Source of the DNA: an uncultured bacterium
GTDB lineage: Bacteria; Cyanobacteriota; Vampirovibrionia; Gastranaerophilales; Gastranaerophilaceae
Assembly: GCA_902761735.1 (NCBI GenBank)
Contig: CACWLL010000006.1
Coordinates: 186,001-250,000 of the forward strand
Direction: 5' to 3'
Length of the DNA stretch: 64,000 nucleotides
Shown: in pieces, positions 3,847 to 27,729 of the stretch
How positions within the stretch are numbered: the stretch's first letter is position 1
Layout of the letters: each line of letters starts with the position of its first letter
Notes under the pieces: generated by a model
Database searches by the model: none
The model's input: the letters and a program-made list of their open reading frames with translations, nothing else
Told to the model about the DNA's origin: nothing
Position numbers and translations under genes: made by a program

Positions 3847-5172
3847 TTGACTGATAAATATTATGTTAAGGGTGGAACCCCGTTAAAAGGTGAGGTAGAG
3901 ATTGGCGGCGCAAAAAATTCCGTATTAAAGTTGATGGCTGCTGCAATATTGGCAAAAGGTGCCACTAAAATATATAATGTTCCGGATTTAACTGACGTTG
4001 AAATTATGCTCAGTGTTATTGAAGGACTTGGTGCAAAAACCGTTTATGATAAAAAAGAAAAATCTATTGTTATTGATGCAACTGAATTGACTAATATTAC
4101 TGCAAAGTATGAATTAGTAAGCAAAATGAGAGCATCATTTATTATTTTGGGTGCATTGATGTCAAGATGCAAAGAAGCAAGGGTTGCACTTCCCGGCGGA
4201 TGTGCAATTGGCGAAAGAAGAGTAGATTTTCATATTAGAGGCTTGGAAGCTCTTGGTGCAAAAATAAAAATTGAAAACGGGTATGTTCACGCAAAAGCTT
4301 CAAAATTAGTCGGAGCTGATGTATATTTAGATATTCCGTCAGTCGGAGCTACTGAAAATATCATGCTTGCTGCAATTTTAGCTTCAGGCTCTACAAGAAT
4401 TCAAAATGCCGCTCAAGAACCGGAAATTGTTGATTTAGCAAATTTCTTAAATACATTAGGTGCTGATGTCAATGGTGCAGGCACATCCGAAATTATTATC
4501 AACGGTGTGAAACCTGAGGATTTGCATCCTATTGAATATACAACTATTCCTGATAGAATTGAGGCGGGTACCTTCATGTCAGCAATTATTGCTACGCGTG
4601 GTAAAGGTATAATTAAAAATGTATTTCCTGCGCATTTGACATTCTTTACGGATAAATTATTGAAGATGGGTGCAAATATTAAACTTTTAGAACCAACTGT
4701 CTTAGAGGTAAGTTGTAAAAACAGATTAAATTCAATAAACTTTGTAACGCAGCCGTATCCGGGTTTCCCTACGGATTTGCAGTCAATGGCTATGGTGTTA
4801 TTATCTACGGCAAACGGTGTTGGTATAATTACTGAAAGTTTATACGAAAACAGATTTATGCAAGTGCCCGAACTTCGCAGAATGGGGGCGGATATTCATC
4901 AGGACAGAAACCATGCAATTATCAAAGGTGTAAAAAAATTAACCGGTGCAGGCGTTTCGTCTTCTGACTTGAGGGCAGGTGCAGCTTTAGTTGTTGCGGC
5001 TTTGATGGCGGAAGGAACTTCTGAAATCGATAATTTACATCATATAGATAGAGGATACGAAAATTTTGAATCTAAGTTAAGATTGTTAGGAGGAAAGATT
5101 GAGAGAAAAGATGGAAGTATCAATTCTCCCGATAACCTAACGGAGGGAATACGTAATGAGTCCTACATATAA
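3847..5172 (+). CDS. murA: UDP-N-acetylglucosamine 1-carboxyvinyltransferase
   Basis: 441 residues, full length. It catalyses the first committed step of peptidoglycan synthesis, transfer of enolpyruvate from PEP to UDP-GlcNAc. Visible family motifs: the start GGTPLKGEVEIGGAKNSVLK, the fosfomycin-target Cys in LPGGCAIGERRVD, and YPGFPTDLQSMAM near the C-terminus. It starts with TTG at 3847, chosen because GGAGGG lies 5 nt upstream and the family N-terminus begins there. A TATAAT at 3824-3829 is the likely -10. The last 17 bases overlap the next gene, which has its own GGAGGG, so the two are probably translated together. Confidence 0.95.
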   Translation: MTDKYYVKGGTPLKGEVEIGGAKNSVLKLMAAAILAKGATKIYNVPDLTDVEIMLSVIEGLGAKTVYDKKEKSIVIDATELTNITAKYELVSKMRASFIILGALMSRCKEARVALPGGCAIGERRVDFHIRGLEALGAKIKIENGYVHAKASKLVGADVYLDIPSVGATENIMLAAILASGSTRIQNAAQEPEIVDLANFLNTLGADVNGAGTSEIIINGVKPEDLHPIEYTTIPDRIEAGTFMSAIIATRGKGIIKNVFPAHLTFFTDKLLKMGANIKLLEPTVLEVSCKNRLNSINFVTQPYPGFPTDLQSMAMVLLSTANGVGIITESLYENRFMQVPELRRMGADIHQDRNHAIIKGVKKLTGAGVSSSDLRAGAALVVAALMAEGTSEIDNLHHIDRGYENFESKLRLLGGKIERKDGSINSPDNLTEGIRNESYI

Positions 5173-5494
5173 ACGCTGGTATGATCATGATCCTTTATTG
5201 CTGGAAGTTATCGAACTTTTAAGAAACTACCAGAATGAGTTGCATGCTCAGGCAGAAATTTTTCTCCATAAGATTGAAGAAAAAGTTTCTAAAGAAACAG
5301 TGGACAGATTTTATGCTCAAGTAAAACCTGTAAATGCAAATAATCGTTGGTATGATAAAGATCCGATTATCTCTAAAACAGTTGAAATTTTGCGTATTGT
5401 TCCTCCTGAAGCTCAAAAAATATGTGCTCAAAATTTTATTAGAACGCTAAAAGAATTAGGTATTGAATATGTAAGTCCAAATGGAAATTCATAG
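5156..5494 (+). CDS. Small protein with duplicated RWYDxDP motif
   Basis: 112 residues, starting inside the end of murA (17-bp overlap, different frame) after a strong GGAGGG. It carries two copies of a motif, KRWYDHDPLLLEVIELL near residue 6 and NRWYDKDPIISKTVEIL near residue 62, so it seems to be a tandem duplication of an about 55-residue helical unit. No signal peptide or membrane segment; cytoplasmic. I do not recognise it as a named family. Coupling to murA suggests a link to cell-wall synthesis, but this is inference from position only. A terminator follows at 5517. Confidence 0.8.
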   Translation: MSPTYKRWYDHDPLLLEVIELLRNYQNELHAQAEIFLHKIEEKVSKETVDRFYAQVKPVNANNRWYDKDPIISKTVEILRIVPPEAQKICAQNFIRTLKELGIEYVSPNGNS

Positions 5495-5516
5495 TAATAA
5501 AATTTTTTAAAAAAGA

Positions 5517-5541
5517 CCGGATAATTTATCCGATTTTTTTT
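5517..5541 (+). terminator. Intrinsic terminator of murA operon
   Basis: CGGAT (5518-5522), a 5-nt loop and ATCCG (5528-5532), followed by ATTTTTTTT. Confidence 0.8.
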
Positions 5542-5602
5542 GCCGTTGCTTTTGGAAATGTGTTAAACTACCGATACAATCTTGATGTTGATTGTATAAA
5601 CA

Positions 5603-5698
5603 GAACCGCTCACTATAATAAAATTACATTATCCGTCGCATTAAACGAGCGAAGCATCTTATGTCGTGCCTCAGGCACAGCTCATTCCTTTGCTCGGC
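5603..5698. repeat. Intergenic repeat, unit 1
   Basis: The unit begins with GAACCGCTCAC (5603-5613) and ends with a 24-bp sequence (5675-5698, starting GCACAGCTCATTCC) that recurs exactly in unit 2. Inside it GTGCC-TCA-GGCAC forms a hairpin at 5666-5678. A part of the unit recurs near 7498. Confidence 0.75.
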
Positions 5699-5718
5699 TT
5701 TCCGCCTCGCAATAAACG

Positions 5719-5800
5719 GAACCGCTCACAAGTAAAACGAAAACTGAACGTTTCCGTTTATACTTGTTCGACTTTCGCACAGCTCATTCCTTTGCTCGGC
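5719..5800. repeat. Intergenic repeat, unit 2
   Basis: Same ends as unit 1: GAACCGCTCAC at 5719-5729 and the exact 24-bp copy at 5777-5800. The centre differs and is itself an imperfect inverted repeat, from ACAAGTA (5728) to TACTTGT (5766). Only the ends are shared between units. Confidence 0.75.
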
Positions 5801-5804
5801 GGGC

Positions 5805-5906
5805 AAAAAAAAAGCTACACTTTCTTGTATAGCTTCACAATAATCTTGGGAGGAGATTTGGGGATAGTTGTACATGCATGATATGCTGAACATGAAAATC
5901 ATGTTA
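5805..5906 (-). ncRNA. Candidate small RNA with anti-Shine-Dalgarno loop (Yfr1-like plan)
   Basis: Read on the minus strand: TTGTAA (5940-5935), 16 bp, TAAAAC (5918-5913), then a predicted start near 5906. The RNA would begin with a 7-bp hairpin AACATGA-TTT-TCATGTT (5905-5889), continue through a stretch with TCTCCTCCC (5856-5848) that can pair with ribosome binding sites, and end in a 9-bp terminator stem (5835-5827 with 5820-5812) followed by a U run (5811-5805). No minus-strand gene lies upstream that would need this terminator. Cyanobacterial Yfr1 has the same hairpin, unpaired CUCCUC, terminator plan. The terminator is firm; the RNA itself is inference. Confidence 0.45.
5812..5835 (-). 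terminator. Minus-strand intrinsic terminator
   Basis: On the minus strand AAGCTATAC, a 6-nt loop and GTGTAGCTT form nine pairs, followed directly by a run of about seven U. It faces away from aroQ and serves no annotated gene. Confidence 0.8.
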
Positions 5907-5982
5907 CATCATGTTTTAAAAATGTAATAAAAATTTACAATTAAATGATTTTGAAGTATCATGTGTATAATAGGAGATTGGC

Positions 5983-6429
5983 ATGAAAATATTGATAATA
6001 AACGGTGTTAATATGAATATGTTGGGTATTCGTGAGCCTGAAAAATATGGCAGCGTTACTCTCAAAGATTTGGAAAAAGATTTATATTCTTTTTCATTTG
6101 AGCTTGGAGTAGATATTGAAACTTTTCAAAGTAATTTTGAAGGTGAAATTGTTGAAAAAATTCATTCTGCTTATGAAAATTTTGATGGAATAGTTATTAA
6201 TCCTGCAGCGTATACTCATACCAGTGTTGCAATTAGAGATGCTATTTCGGCTGTTAATATCCCGACGGTTGAAATTCATATGACAAATATTCAGGCAAGA
6301 GAAGATTTTAGACAAAAATCTCTCATTGCACCTGTTTGTATTGCTCAAATAAGTGGTTTTGGTATCGATAGTTATAAATTGGGCTTACGTGGTATTGTTG
6401 AATATCTAAGAACGGATATAACCGAATAA
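5983..6429 (+). CDS. aroQ: 3-dehydroquinate dehydratase, type II
   Basis: 148 residues, normal length for the dodecameric type II enzyme of the shikimate pathway, which turns 3-dehydroquinate into 3-dehydroshikimate. Motifs: INGVNMNMLGIREPEKYG with the catalytic Arg and Tyr of the active-site lid, INPAAYTHTSVAIRDA, and VEIHMTNIQAREDFRQ with the catalytic His. The usual GPN of the first motif is GVN here. AGGAGA precedes the ATG and TATAAT lies at 5966-5971, giving a very short leader. It converges with asd, 3 bp apart. Confidence 0.95.
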   Translation: MKILIINGVNMNMLGIREPEKYGSVTLKDLEKDLYSFSFELGVDIETFQSNFEGEIVEKIHSAYENFDGIVINPAAYTHTSVAIRDAISAVNIPTVEIHMTNIQAREDFRQKSLIAPVCIAQISGFGIDSYKLGLRGIVEYLRTDITE

Positions 6430-6432
6430 ATA

Positions 6433-7455
6433 TTAATATAGCCCCATTTCAATAATTTTTTGGCAAATTCTGACAGTGTTCAATGCGGCGCCAATTCTTA
6501 AATTATCCGCAACGCACCATAACGAAATTCCGTTCTTAAAAGCAAGATTTTTTCTTATTCTTCCGACAAATACAGGATCAACTCCGTCGGCATCACGGGT
6601 TGTCGGATATTCATAGTTATCAATATTATCAATAACATTTACTCCGAAGGTTTCGGATAAGATTTTGCGAACTTCATCAGGCGTAATCTCATTTTCAAAT
6701 TCTATATCAACTGCTTCGGAGTGTCCTCTATATACCGGAACCCTTACGGCAGTACATGATATAGGTAAATCCTGAGGAAGATGCAAAATTTTCTTTGTTT
6801 CATTTACTACTTTCATTTCTTCTTTTGTGTAACCGTTTTCCGTAAATACATCAATCTGCGGGATAACGTTAAATGAAATTGGTTTCTTGAAAGCCTTGTT
6901 TTCAAATTTTTCGCCTCTTTGATGAGCTTTTGTATCTTCCGTTAATTCATTTATTGCCGCTAAACCTGCCCCTGATACCGCTTGGTATGTTGATACTATA
7001 AGACGTTTAATTTTTGCTTTTTCATTCAAAGGTTTTAGGACTAACATAAGTTGGGATGTTGAACAGTTTGGATTTGCAATAATTCCCTTATGATTACGTA
7101 AATCCTCATCATTAACCGATGCTATAACAAGAGGAACATCTTTTTCCATTCTGAAAGCACTTGAGTTATCAATCAAGACTCCGCCGCGTTTTACGATTTC
7201 CGGAGCAAATTTTTGAGAAGTAGAACCTCCCGCTGAAGCCAATACAATATTTACTCCGTCAAAGCTTTCAGGCTTAGCTTCTTCTACCGTATAAGTTTTT
7301 CCTTGAAATTCAAGCTTTTTACCTGCACTTTTAGCGCTTGATAAAAACTTTATACTATTGTATTCAATCTTTAATTCATCCAGTATTTGAATAATCTCTC
7401 TGCCTACAACTCCGGTAGCACCGAGTATTGCTATATTTGGTTTTCTTTCTGTCAT
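6433..7455 (-). CDS. asd: Aspartate-semialdehyde dehydrogenase
   Basis: 340 residues. It reduces aspartyl phosphate to aspartate semialdehyde, the branch point for lysine, diaminopimelate, threonine and methionine. Motifs: N-terminal Rossmann AILGATGVVGREIIQIL, catalytic Cys in ANPNCSTSQLML, and GHSEAV with the substrate-binding region. The start has AGGAAAA upstream. The gene stands alone and faces aroQ; an LL-DAP-aminotransferase-like gene at 59341 could act later in the same pathway. Confidence 0.95.
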   Translation of the reverse strand: MTERKPNIAILGATGVVGREIIQILDELKIEYNSIKFLSSAKSAGKKLEFQGKTYTVEEAKPESFDGVNIVLASAGGSTSQKFAPEIVKRGGVLIDNSSAFRMEKDVPLVIASVNDEDLRNHKGIIANPNCSTSQLMLVLKPLNEKAKIKRLIVSTYQAVSGAGLAAINELTEDTKAHQRGEKFENKAFKKPISFNVIPQIDVFTENGYTKEEMKVVNETKKILHLPQDLPISCTAVRVPVYRGHSEAVDIEFENEITPDEVRKILSETFGVNVIDNIDNYEYPTTRDADGVDPVFVGRIRKNLAFKNGISLWCVADNLRIGAALNTVRICQKIIEMGLY

Positions 7456-20358: not shown

Positions 20359-20610
20359 TTCATGTGCCTCCTTTATACAATTTTTGTATATTTATAATAA
20401 ATTATTGTTACGCTTTACATAATACTATAAAAAACATCTTTTTTGTAAATTTTACACTCAAAAACTTGTTTTTTCTTTCTTTCATATATTAAATATCCTC
20501 TAAATTCAATCTCTACGCATCATTCGCCCGTACTATTTTTATTAAGAATTATTAATCAATAATTTTATTCTAATTACAATCATATTATTTTGGAATACAA
20601 TAGAGTTGTT
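20359..20610. promoter_or_regulatory. Divergent regulatory region speD / rpaA-like
   Basis: 252 bp without a gene. Contents: the speD ribosome binding site; a palindrome TATACAATTTTTGTATA just upstream of it; an inverted pair of TGTAA/TTACA half sites near 20444-20456; and, for the regulator, TACAAT at 20596-20601 with TTACAA 16 bp upstream, 9 nt before its ATG. Confidence 0.5.
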
Positions 20611-21306
20611 ATGAGCAAAATATTAGTAATTGATGATGATAATGCGATAAATGAGCTTATTAAAATAAATCTTGAACTGGAAGGGCATGTTGTTTTGCAG
20701 GCATTTGACGGGATTCAGGGTTATGCATTGTGTAAACAGGAATTGCCGGCTCTTGTTGTTCTTGATGTTATGATGCCTGAGGTAGACGGGTTTACGGTAG
20801 CCCAGAGAATCAGAAAGAACGAAGAAACTAAAGATACACCAATCCTTATGTTGACGGCTCTTTCACAATTGAATGACAAAGTGACAGGCTTTGATATCGG
20901 CGTAGATGATTATCTCGTAAAACCTTTTGAAATGGAAGAATTAAAGGTTCGTGTCAGGGCACTGTTAAAGCGTACAAACCAAATTCCTAAGTCTGCTTCT
21001 ACAAGAGAACTGTTAACTTTGGGTGAAGTTACACTTATGCCAGAAACATATAGTGTAAAAATTAATGACAAAGTAGTAAAATTAACGCCGATAGAATTTG
21101 ATATATTTAATCTGTTATTCCAAAATCATGGCAATATGGTATCTTCAGCCCAGATTTTAAAAGATATCTGGGGCTATTCTCCGGATGATGATATTGAAAC
21201 AATTCGTGTTCATATTCGTCATATGAGAACAAAATTGGATAAAATATCAAACGGCAAGAAGTATATTACAACTATTTACGGTGGCGGATATAAATTTAGT
21301 GTTTAG
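20611..21306 (+). CDS. OmpR-family response regulator, RpaA-like
   Basis: 231 residues: receiver domain (acidic pocket DDD at 8-10, phosphoacceptor D52 in LVVLDVMMPEVDG, KPFE) and winged-helix DNA-binding domain. Several stretches match what I know of cyanobacterial RpaA rather than RpaB or PhoB: LMLTALSQLNDKVTGF, RVRALLKRTNQIP and WGYSPDDDIETIRVHIRHMR. RpaA is the output regulator of the circadian clock in cyanobacteria; no kai or sasA gene is here. It is an orphan with no kinase nearby. Start chosen at 20611 because the family begins MSKILVIDDD there and TACAAT ends 9 nt upstream, leaving no room for the in-frame TTG at 20590. Confidence 0.9.
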   Translation: MSKILVIDDDNAINELIKINLELEGHVVLQAFDGIQGYALCKQELPALVVLDVMMPEVDGFTVAQRIRKNEETKDTPILMLTALSQLNDKVTGFDIGVDDYLVKPFEMEELKVRVRALLKRTNQIPKSASTRELLTLGEVTLMPETYSVKINDKVVKLTPIEFDIFNLLFQNHGNMVSSAQILKDIWGYSPDDDIETIRVHIRHMRTKLDKISNGKKYITTIYGGGYKFSV

Positions 21307-25704: not shown

Positions 25705-27729
25705 TTACTCGTGGCAGCCAAATGCGATTGTAATATGTTCTCTTGGGTTAACCGCAGAGATTTTATAACCTTTAGGGTCAACTAGGTATGCAAATTCATC
25801 ACCGGTTGTTTGGAATAATCCCATTGTACCGGATAATGCAGTTCTTGTCACGTCAACAGGTGCTTTGACAGTTTCCCAAAGTCCATCTCCCAAGTTTCTG
25901 GCAGCAGCCCCGAATTTACCCTGAAATACGTGTCCAAGCATATAACCTGCGTCGTTTGAAACATTTTCAACGGCATTTCCCAAATTGGAAACGATACCGC
26001 CTGCAGTTCTGCCTACAACACCAACCAGTGAGCCGGCGAGGGTAAATGGCATTTCAACAAATCTTGCAACAGGATTTACTTGTCTTGATTTGTTTACTTG
26101 GGCTTGAAGTATTTGTTTTGGCAGGTTTGCATCGTGGCAGCCGTCAGTGATACTTGTGAATGAAAGTTTTAGTGCACCTTTGTTGCAACCTGAAGGTCTT
26201 ATGACTTCTACCACCTGTCCCGTTACTGTTGAACCTATCGGGTAAGTAACGCCGTTTATTGTTACTTCTTCAAGAGTATTTGCCCTAAAGTATTGACCAA
26301 CGTGAGAAGATTTTGCCGTTAACTGGTCAATCATCTTAACTTTTAATGTTGGTATATTAACTATTTGTGATTCTTCAATAAATGCTTGTTTATTGAAGTC
26401 AGGCGTTATAGGGCAAGCCGCATTTGCTGTTGCGGGATTTGTATCGTAACCAAGAGCTACACGAATAGTTTGCAGCATAGAAGCGACATCTGCACGGGTA
26501 GCTTCTCTGTTAGGAAAAATCATATTTGGATTAGGTGAATCTTTCAATGCACCGTTTTGTAATGATTTAGCAACAGGTATTCTTGCCCACCCCGGAACGC
26601 TGTTACCGTCGGCGTATTTTGAAAGGATTTCGTTAGCTTTACATTCATCTATGTCGCAATTCATTCCTTTTGCAATTGAAGTAAGCGCTTCTGCACGAGT
26701 TACTTTCTTGTTTGGCATAAATTTACCGTTAGGGTACCCTGCAAGTAAATCTTCATCTACGGCCTTTGCAATGGCTGCATTTGCCCAATTATGTGTTGGG
26801 ACATCAGAGAAGATTCTTCTGGTATGTAATCCGCAGTCATCAAGATTAAATCCCTTAACAAGCATTGTTGCAAATTCGGCACGGGTTATATCTTTGCGAG
26901 GTTTGAATTGACCGTCAGGATATCCGACAACTACATTATTCATTGCAAGTTTGTCTATATCGCATGATGCCCAGTAGCTGTTAGGAACGTCAGGGAACAT
27001 TCCTCCGCCCATCATTGCCGGTGCGGCAGCCCCGATTGGTAAACCTTCCAGAGCTGCTTTCATATCGAAAGGGACCATAGCTTTTTTTATTGCCTGACGG
27101 GAACTTCTTGTTTGAATATCTATTGGAGTGTTGTTTCCGTCCATAATACGTTCATTTCTTTCAACGGGTATTCCGTTGTATCTTGTCGGGTCTTCGCCCA
27201 AACATGGAAGTTGTGATGCCGCTCCCGTAATCAAGCCTTCGGAAGAAACGGTAGTTCCGCTTATTGCGGAATTTAATTGTCCTGCAGTACCGATATTTGC
27301 AGTTTCTGTTGTTAGGATTGAATTGGCCTGTTCTCCTACGTAATTATTTGTACCATAAATTGCGTTTGGATAGCCGTATACCTGATGCATATCCTTTTTG
27401 CTTGGTTTCCCCGTTTGAGGACAAACCGCGCATGCATCATCAGCAGTTGAGTCTATGCTTGTGTCAAAATTTTTATCACAACCACAATCCGGTTTTGCCT
27501 TTTGGCAGTCGCAATCGTCAAAAGCTTTATTGCATTTATCGCAAGTGGGAGTTTTTGTGCAAGGACATGCTCCTCCTGTCACAACAGGTAAAGCTTCAGG
27601 ACACGGGGTTTGTGTTACCGGAGCTGCCGGTTGTTGGGTACACGGGCATGCTGCCATTACCTGATCCAAGGAACACGTTGCTATTCCAACGGCAATTGCA
27701 GCTGCCACAGTTAGTTTTTTAATTGTCAT
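25705..27729 (-). CDS. SLH-domain surface protein with cysteine-rich N-terminus
   Basis: 674 residues. A signal peptide (about 1-26) is followed by a head (about 27-105) with 13 Cys, including four CxC and two CxxC motifs. Three SLH repeats lie in about 245-440 (FPDVPNSYWASCDIDKLAMN, FSDVPTHNWANAAIAKAVDE and a third with YADGNSVPGWARIPVAKSL). The C-terminal part has a glycine/valine-rich stretch (about 565-640) that could lie in a membrane. SLH domains anchor proteins to cell-wall polymers; in Cyanobacteria-related lineages they usually sit on outer-membrane proteins. The ribosome binding site AAGGAGG and a stable hairpin before it suggest high expression. Ligand of the Cys head unknown. Confidence 0.85.
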   Translation of the reverse strand: MTIKKLTVAAAIAVGIATCSLDQVMAACPCTQQPAAPVTQTPCPEALPVVTGGACPCTKTPTCDKCNKAFDDCDCQKAKPDCGCDKNFDTSIDSTADDACAVCPQTGKPSKKDMHQVYGYPNAIYGTNNYVGEQANSILTTETANIGTAGQLNSAISGTTVSSEGLITGAASQLPCLGEDPTRYNGIPVERNERIMDGNNTPIDIQTRSSRQAIKKAMVPFDMKAALEGLPIGAAAPAMMGGGMFPDVPNSYWASCDIDKLAMNNVVVGYPDGQFKPRKDITRAEFATMLVKGFNLDDCGLHTRRIFSDVPTHNWANAAIAKAVDEDLLAGYPNGKFMPNKKVTRAEALTSIAKGMNCDIDECKANEILSKYADGNSVPGWARIPVAKSLQNGALKDSPNPNMIFPNREATRADVASMLQTIRVALGYDTNPATANAACPITPDFNKQAFIEESQIVNIPTLKVKMIDQLTAKSSHVGQYFRANTLEEVTINGVTYPIGSTVTGQVVEVIRPSGCNKGALKLSFTSITDGCHDANLPKQILQAQVNKSRQVNPVARFVEMPFTLAGSLVGVVGRTAGGIVSNLGNAVENVSNDAGYMLGHVFQGKFGAAARNLGDGLWETVKAPVDVTRTALSGTMGLFQTTGDEFAYLVDPKGYKISAVNPREHITIAFGCHE

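Follow-up and report, generated by a model that had tools for sequence, protein, structure and literature searches.

A new, order-wide small RNA family of the Gastranaerophilales with a conserved anti-Shine-Dalgarno motif

The minus strand of the window (the whole 64,000-nt stretch of DNA that was analysed) almost certainly carries a small RNA (sRNA) gene, here named RNA A, which runs from position 5873 to position 5805 beside aroQ. RNA A defines a new sRNA family that is spread across the order Gastranaerophilales, which are non-photosynthetic gut cyanobacteria, and it belongs to a functional kind already known. The best explanation, to which we assign a probability of roughly 60%, is that A is a trans-acting RNA throughout the order, that a second element, B, serves as its sponge in one subclade, and that a regulator of the OmpR/RpaB type possibly controls it. 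Under this explanation, a transcript of about 69 nt would be driven by its own promoter and ended by its own terminator, the CUCCUCC of A would pair with the Shine-Dalgarno regions of several mRNAs and block their translation, the nearly complementary G-rich stretch of B would sequester A in the subclade, and the OmpR/RpaB-type regulator would set the transcription of A.

Results

Position, promoter and boundaries of the RNA A gene

The original prediction had described, on the minus strand, an sRNA gene with a promoter-like sequence, a hairpin, an anti-Shine-Dalgarno C-rich motif and a strong intrinsic terminator. All of these sequence features are present, and the sRNA gene with its C-rich motif and terminator proved to be conserved far beyond chance. 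The features of the locus are as follows.

5924 to 5941, minus strand: HLR1-like box ATTGTAAATTTTTATTAC, at about -67 to -50, in the reverse orientation of KTTACAWW-N2-KTTACAWW
5902 to 5907, minus strand: -35-like element GTAACA, with an 18-bp spacer; conserved in the main clade; overlaps the 7-bp hairpin at 5905-5889
5878 to 5883, minus strand: -10 element TATCAT, directly upstream of the predicted 5' end; main-clade loci keep the spacing, other loci have AT-rich equivalents
5805 to 5873, minus strand: RNA A GUACAACUAUCCCCAAAUCUCCUCCCAAGAUUAUUGUGAAGCUAUACAAGAAAGUGUAGCUUUUUUUUU, predicted to be about 69 nt; boundaries kept in 30 loci
5842 to 5863, minus strand: ultraconserved motif CCCCAAAUCUCCUCCCAAGAUU, which includes CUCCUCCC (5855-5848); near-invariant in 35 main-clade sequences
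5842 to 5858, minus strand: predicted weak 5-bp hairpin AAUCU-CCUCCCA-AGAUU, in which CCUCCC would sit in the loop
5805 to 5836, minus strand: Rho-independent terminator, stem 5836-5811 followed by a T-run, with compensatory changes

The alignments showed that GTAACA-N18-TATCAT and all of the sequence from TATCATGCATGTACAAC on are kept in relatives. The nearly frozen block spans TATCATGCATGTACAACT to AAGATTATTGT, and the 7-bp hairpin upstream (AACATGA-TTT-TCATGTT, 5905-5889) is replaced by unrelated A/T runs such as GTAACAAAAAAAACATG. Since the hairpin overlaps the -35 element and the spacer and the frozen block opens with the -10 box, transcription most likely starts near 5871-5874. The hairpin had been thought to stand at the transcript start; judged from the alignments, it is a part of the promoter and not of the RNA, and it is not conserved in relatives. 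With a start near 5873 and an end after the terminator at 5805, the transcript would be about 69 nt in length and not about 100 nt as previously estimated. The predicted length is mostly 64-73 nt in 30 main-clade loci, the 5' ends being predictions from sequence conservation, and the models R1 and R2 match the window at 5873-5805 and 5872-5805 of the minus strand, respectively. The sequence TTGTAA (5940-5935)-N16-TAAAAC (5918-5913), which had been taken for the promoter, does exist. Its TTGTAA is conserved, but as part of a box further upstream, at about -67 to -50, and not as a -35 element.

Conserved sequence and structure of RNA A

The first approximately 37 nt of RNA A are nearly invariant in the main clade. 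Across the order, AAAUCUCCUCC is invariant in all 38 of 38 diverse sequences, and the CCC before it and the CAA after it are nearly so. CUCCUCC lies inside this invariant stretch and is complementary to ribosome-binding sites, as CUCCUCCC is to Shine-Dalgarno/GGAGG sites. The C-rich motif of the original prediction, TCTCCTCCC (5856-5848), is not only present; its conservation also exceeds chance by far. The weak 5-bp hairpin is unproven, since its pairs show no variation within the main clade and copies with AAAAUAUU do not preserve them.

The minus-strand terminator is real, with a stem at 5836-5811 followed by Ts. Five pairs of the stem show compensatory changes on both sides; the compensated cells numbered 24, compared with 5.7 in shuffles, and none of the 500 shuffles scored as high. 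In the region 5000-6500, 4 terminator-like sites were found against 0.7 +/- 0.7 in shuffled sequences, and the inferred RNA A folds better than its shuffles (z -3.5). The conservation in relatives holds for the C-rich motif and the terminator, but not for the 5' hairpin.

If the locus encoded a short peptide instead of a non-coding RNA, an open frame would be needed, and a frame of 14 codons from ATG to stop does exist in the window (ATG CAT GTA CAA CTA TCC CCA AAT CTC CTC CCA AGA TTA TTG TGA). However, most other genera have no stop at this place (TTGTTC...), others (L172, L174, L177) either lack the ATG or have a stop after it, there is no ribosome-binding site, and all codon positions are equally invariant. 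A short ORF is contradicted by the missing starts and stops, and we regard it as extremely improbable.

Distribution and genomic neighbours

By DNA similarity, the RNA A stretch was found in 12 of 13 same-genus genomes. At E<=0.001 it was matched in 247 of 288 genomes of the family; chance may explain the weakest of these matches. A covariance model built from relatives (35 sequences), a check that the original prediction had proposed, detected RNA A in 201 of the 241 sampled Gastranaerophilales genomes, belonging to 42 of 50 genera, almost always as a single copy. Some genera of the family (e.g. g21, g26 and g36) are without a clear copy, and one g21 locus (L204) has a possible diverged RNA A, with AAAACCTCCTCCCCAAGTCT plus a terminator. 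Among 292 genomes of the phylum that were screened by a fast search, the matches listed were inside the Gastranaerophilales only. When 36 genomes outside the order were searched more sensitively with the order-wide model R2, the matches were only weak, and those inspected were without the motif. No Rfam family matches RNA A, all scores being below gathering even at loose thresholds, and no Gastranaerophilales small RNA was found in the open-access literature searched.

RNA A adjoins aroQ in the window and at every main-clade locus tested (L084-L165), which favours a cis element of aroQ, such as a leader, an attenuator, or DNA shared with the divergent aroQ promoter. On the contrary, RNA A is transcribed away from aroQ, it is flipped relative to aroQ at L092, aroQ is absent from its neighbourhood at L166-L191, and the covariation of the terminator indicates an RNA. 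An aroQ leader is contradicted by the unlinked copies, and a cis element of any of these kinds is highly improbable. At other loci the neighbours read as phosphoglucomutase, plsY, nucleoside phosphorylase, nagZ, lipA, glyQ and others, names that were read from the protein sequences and not from a family search. Among these unrelated neighbours, the upstream box, the promoter and the terminator travel with RNA A. Because promoter, box and RNA move together while the neighbours change, we concluded that RNA A is a stand-alone gene; its conservation, its independence from neighbours and the covariation of its terminator are direct observations from the computation.

Some further observations were made around the locus. 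In one f3 genome (L188), genes close to RNA A resemble, by sequence impression, those for a periplasmic protein of the CpxP/Spy type and for an extracytoplasmic sigma factor. Positions 5600-5810 of the window, between a small gene (5156-5494) and the sRNA terminator, contain repeated segments (copies of AGCTCATTCCTTTGCTCGGC and AACGGAACCGCTCAC) that are not conserved with the sRNA, and 23-27 bp around the end of the RNA A terminator match two other contigs of the window's genome. Similar intergenic segments, CACCCCACCTTTATCCTCCCC...GGGGAGGA, occur at L394 (G000 C18:85-170) and at about 54990 of the window (minus strand); they look like a dispersed repeat and also contain anti-Shine-Dalgarno-like sequence.

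Upstream box and an RpaB-like regulator

In cyanobacteria, the response regulator RpaB controls photosynthesis genes. Most of the 42 loci analyzed carry the HLR1-like box, with a mean score of 14.3 of 16 compared with 11.7 in mononucleotide-shuffled upstream DNA; the box is in reverse orientation, and its second half is degenerate in many copies. The HLR1 consensus is KTTACAWW-N2-KTTACAWW, and RpaB of cyanobacteria acts as an activator from positions of about -66 to -45 (PMC13421787). The window encodes an OmpR-family regulator.

20590 to 21306, plus strand: OmpR-family response regulator; best NCBIfam model RpaB; PF00486 and PF00072

This protein scored 209.6 bits (E 4e-62) against NF045944, which is below the curated cut-off of 330. 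Control of RNA A by an RpaB-like regulator is a tentative suggestion, at which the box and this gene hint.

Relationship of RNA A to Yfr1

The RNA had been proposed to be Yfr1-like. Yfr1 is defined by ACUCCUCACAC unpaired between two hairpins, a length of 54-69 nt and a location usually near guaB or trxA (PMC2190773). The Yfr1 model (RF01116), run over 171 bases, found nothing at a threshold as loose as E<=10, while the positive controls from Gloeobacterales and Picosynechococcus scored 52.7 and 36.7 bits, respectively. The exact Yfr1 motif is present in both cyanobacterial control genomes, RNA A has AUCUCCUCCCAAG, and ACTCCTCACAC is absent from the five Gastranaerophilales or same-class genomes tested (G000, which is the window's genome, and four relatives). 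In the opposite direction, R2 at E<=10 misses the control Yfr1 loci and found no convincing match in the sampled cyanobacterial genomes. The Yfr1 5' stem-loop of 6-10 bp, followed by the unpaired motif of 16-20 nt, has no equivalent in RNA A. The size and the 3' terminator hairpin do agree, RNA A being mostly 64-73 nt as counted from the predicted 5' end. The location differs, as RNA A adjoins aroQ and elsewhere unrelated genes.

A true Yfr1 ortholog that has diverged in non-photosynthetic Cyanobacteriota would account for the same phylum, the similar size, the CUCCUC core and the terminator, and for the complementary partner element in one subclade, which is like Yfr1/Yfr2 (PMC6778093). Against it stand the RF01116 search, negative here and positive on two cyanobacteria, the failure of R2 on Yfr1 loci and sampled cyanobacteria, and the lack of the 5' hairpin, of ACUCCUCACAC and of guaB/trxA synteny, so that such orthology is very unlikely. 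As far as tested, RNA A is not a Yfr1 member by descent, and it may work alike: the original comparison is reasonable for the mode of action, and gains weight in one subclade from the complementary partner, but identity is not supported.

Mode of action and search for mRNA targets

RNA A is an independent gene with its own promoter and terminator and has a conserved motif complementary to ribosome sites, as in trans-encoded anti-Shine-Dalgarno sRNAs. It is probable from this complementarity that RNA A acts by anti-Shine-Dalgarno pairing, by which it would repress mRNAs. We scanned two partly sampled genomes for duplexes of <= -20 kcal/mol at ribosome-binding sites, using controls in which the flanks of A were shuffled around CUCCUCCC. 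Such duplexes were found for 3 of 430 sampled genes in G000, compared with 4-9 in the controls, and for 14 of 731 genes in G082, compared with 7-24. There is no excess of extended complementarity at the ribosome-binding sites of G000 and G082, and G000 is if anything weaker than its controls. In 12 genomes, a search for 12-mer complements gave 79 non-self matches, compared with 48 when the pattern was reversed, and only a few lay at start codons. Thus no specific mRNA target was supported by the scan of two genomes and the 12-mer search of 12; pairing of A with many mRNAs through short seeds is possible.

Single promising sites, for instance one of -28.8 kcal/mol at a prepilin-like gene (L264/L329), were rejected as targets, as no recurrence was shown. 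Yfr1 is a repressor of outer-membrane and cell-wall mRNAs, and the SLH and porin genes of the window had also been suggested as targets.

25705 to 27729: SLH gene; SLH domain by Pfam, the iron-uptake-porin match being weak

This gene showed only generic Shine-Dalgarno pairing, at -9.4 kcal/mol, and the suggestion was not supported.

The invariant stretch of A is longer than pairing seeds usually need, which counts against the anti-Shine-Dalgarno explanation. RNA A might instead bind a protein, in the manner of 6S-like or Csr-type RNAs, with the ribosome-site complementarity being secondary; the invariance over 20 or more nt and the lack of excess extended mRNA complementarity would both fit. 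However, the motif is a textbook anti-Shine-Dalgarno sequence, and a second element, retained in six genera, is complementary to precisely the invariant stretch. We consider protein binding unlikely and anti-Shine-Dalgarno pairing the preferred mode of action.

A complementary element, B, in one subclade

A search of 40 genomes for the complement of the motif returned RNA A's own antisense and a set of intergenic sites, named element B. The layout of B is TTTGGGAGGAGATTTGG, a short loop, CCAAATC and then a G+C-rich terminator. By pattern search and then the model R3, whose matches below about 35 bits are noisy, as terminators also score, B was counted in 23 genomes of six genera (15 of 15 sampled g5, four g33, and one each of g19, g12, g32 and g41).

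Examples of B (intergenic, terminator-ended): L320:1029-1086, L324:1034-1097, L350, L361, L380-L383 and others

No Rfam match was found in the five B loci tested. When A and B were taken from one and the same genome, their net interaction was predicted at -21 to -25 kcal/mol in four genera, in each of which it was below 100 of 100 shuffles of the 5' part of A; the complementarity of A and B is thus a computed fact. In the predicted structure of B, GGGAGGAG is largely unpaired and GAUUUGG is held by CCAAAUC, a layout that would suit toehold pairing with A.

Precedents for such a sponge RNA exist. In a reporter assay, Yfr2 lifted the repression exerted by Yfr1 (PMC6778093), and in Caulobacter CrfA acts as a sponge of SisA, an anti-Shine-Dalgarno sRNA (PMC12559287). 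From its sequence, B is somewhat more likely a real sponge of A, where present, than anything else. B might also be a chance feature or another RNA feature, for example a 3' UTR, as its upstream parts are not conserved between genera and its stem pairs never vary. Such an origin is rather doubtful, since GGAGGAGATTT is invariant in the aligned B copies while the hairpin loop and the terminator change, and a TTTAATA-type -10 element lies some 45-60 nt upstream in most copies.

Searches of the window's genome by complement, by pattern and by model, together with a further partial scan, did not find B. Genera without a visible B also have an invariant RNA A; therefore, B is not the main reason for the conservation of A. 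In another genome of the window's genus, L388 (G012 C5:11852-11905) is an intergenic TTTTGGGAGAATATTTGCATCC followed by a strong terminator, with -21.4 kcal/mol for pairing with A, and it is possibly a diverged B. Upstream of B at L324, L361, L363 and related loci, a TTGTAA-A-rich-TGTTAC sequence resembles the TGTAA-type box of A, and the two RNAs may share a regulator.

Comparison with known systems

The conservation of RNA A in a mostly uncultured gut lineage provides a handle on translation control there. RNA A has its nearest functional analogues in Yfr1 and in SisA of Caulobacter, both anti-Shine-Dalgarno sRNAs. Like Yfr1, RNA A is small, single-copy and near-universal in its own lineage, with an ultraconserved CUCCUC-containing motif and an intrinsic terminator (PMC2190773), and like Yfr1 with Yfr2 it faces, in six genera, a predicted second RNA whose motif is nearly complementary (PMC6778093). 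Unlike Yfr1, its motif is CCCCAAAUCUCCUCCCAAG(A)U and not ACUCCUCACAC, and it differs in the missing 5' stem-loop and RF01116 match and in its neighbours; unlike Yfr2, B is limited to a subclade and is without an Rfam match. That A and B form a Yfr1/Yfr2-type circuit, either shared from an ancestor or re-invented, and tied to an RpaB-like regulator, is an idea we hold with considerable reserve.

Two Rfam families resemble RNA A in layout and were rejected as its identity. The Betaproteobacteria toxic small RNA (RF02278) has a UCCUCC-rich loop and a terminator and gave the best Rfam alignment, 23.2 bits against a gathering score of 50, with different stems and lineage. The alphaproteobacterial mmgR/suhB (RF00519) has a CUCCC-type unpaired motif before its terminator and gave a weak full-length alignment of 17.4 bits against a gathering score of 41, again in a different lineage.

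In the Caulobacter SisA-D/CrfA system, an anti-Shine-Dalgarno sRNA is opposed by a separately transcribed sponge RNA (PMC12559287), as proposed here for A and B. Unlike RNA A, SisA-D are four siblings, Hfq-dependent and found in Alphaproteobacteria (PMC12559287), and the likeness drawn here is one of probable mode of action. The pairing of A and B, if real, would set a further anti-Shine-Dalgarno sRNA and its opposing sponge beside Yfr1/Yfr2 and SisA/CrfA, and would make common ancestry versus repeated invention of such pairs testable.
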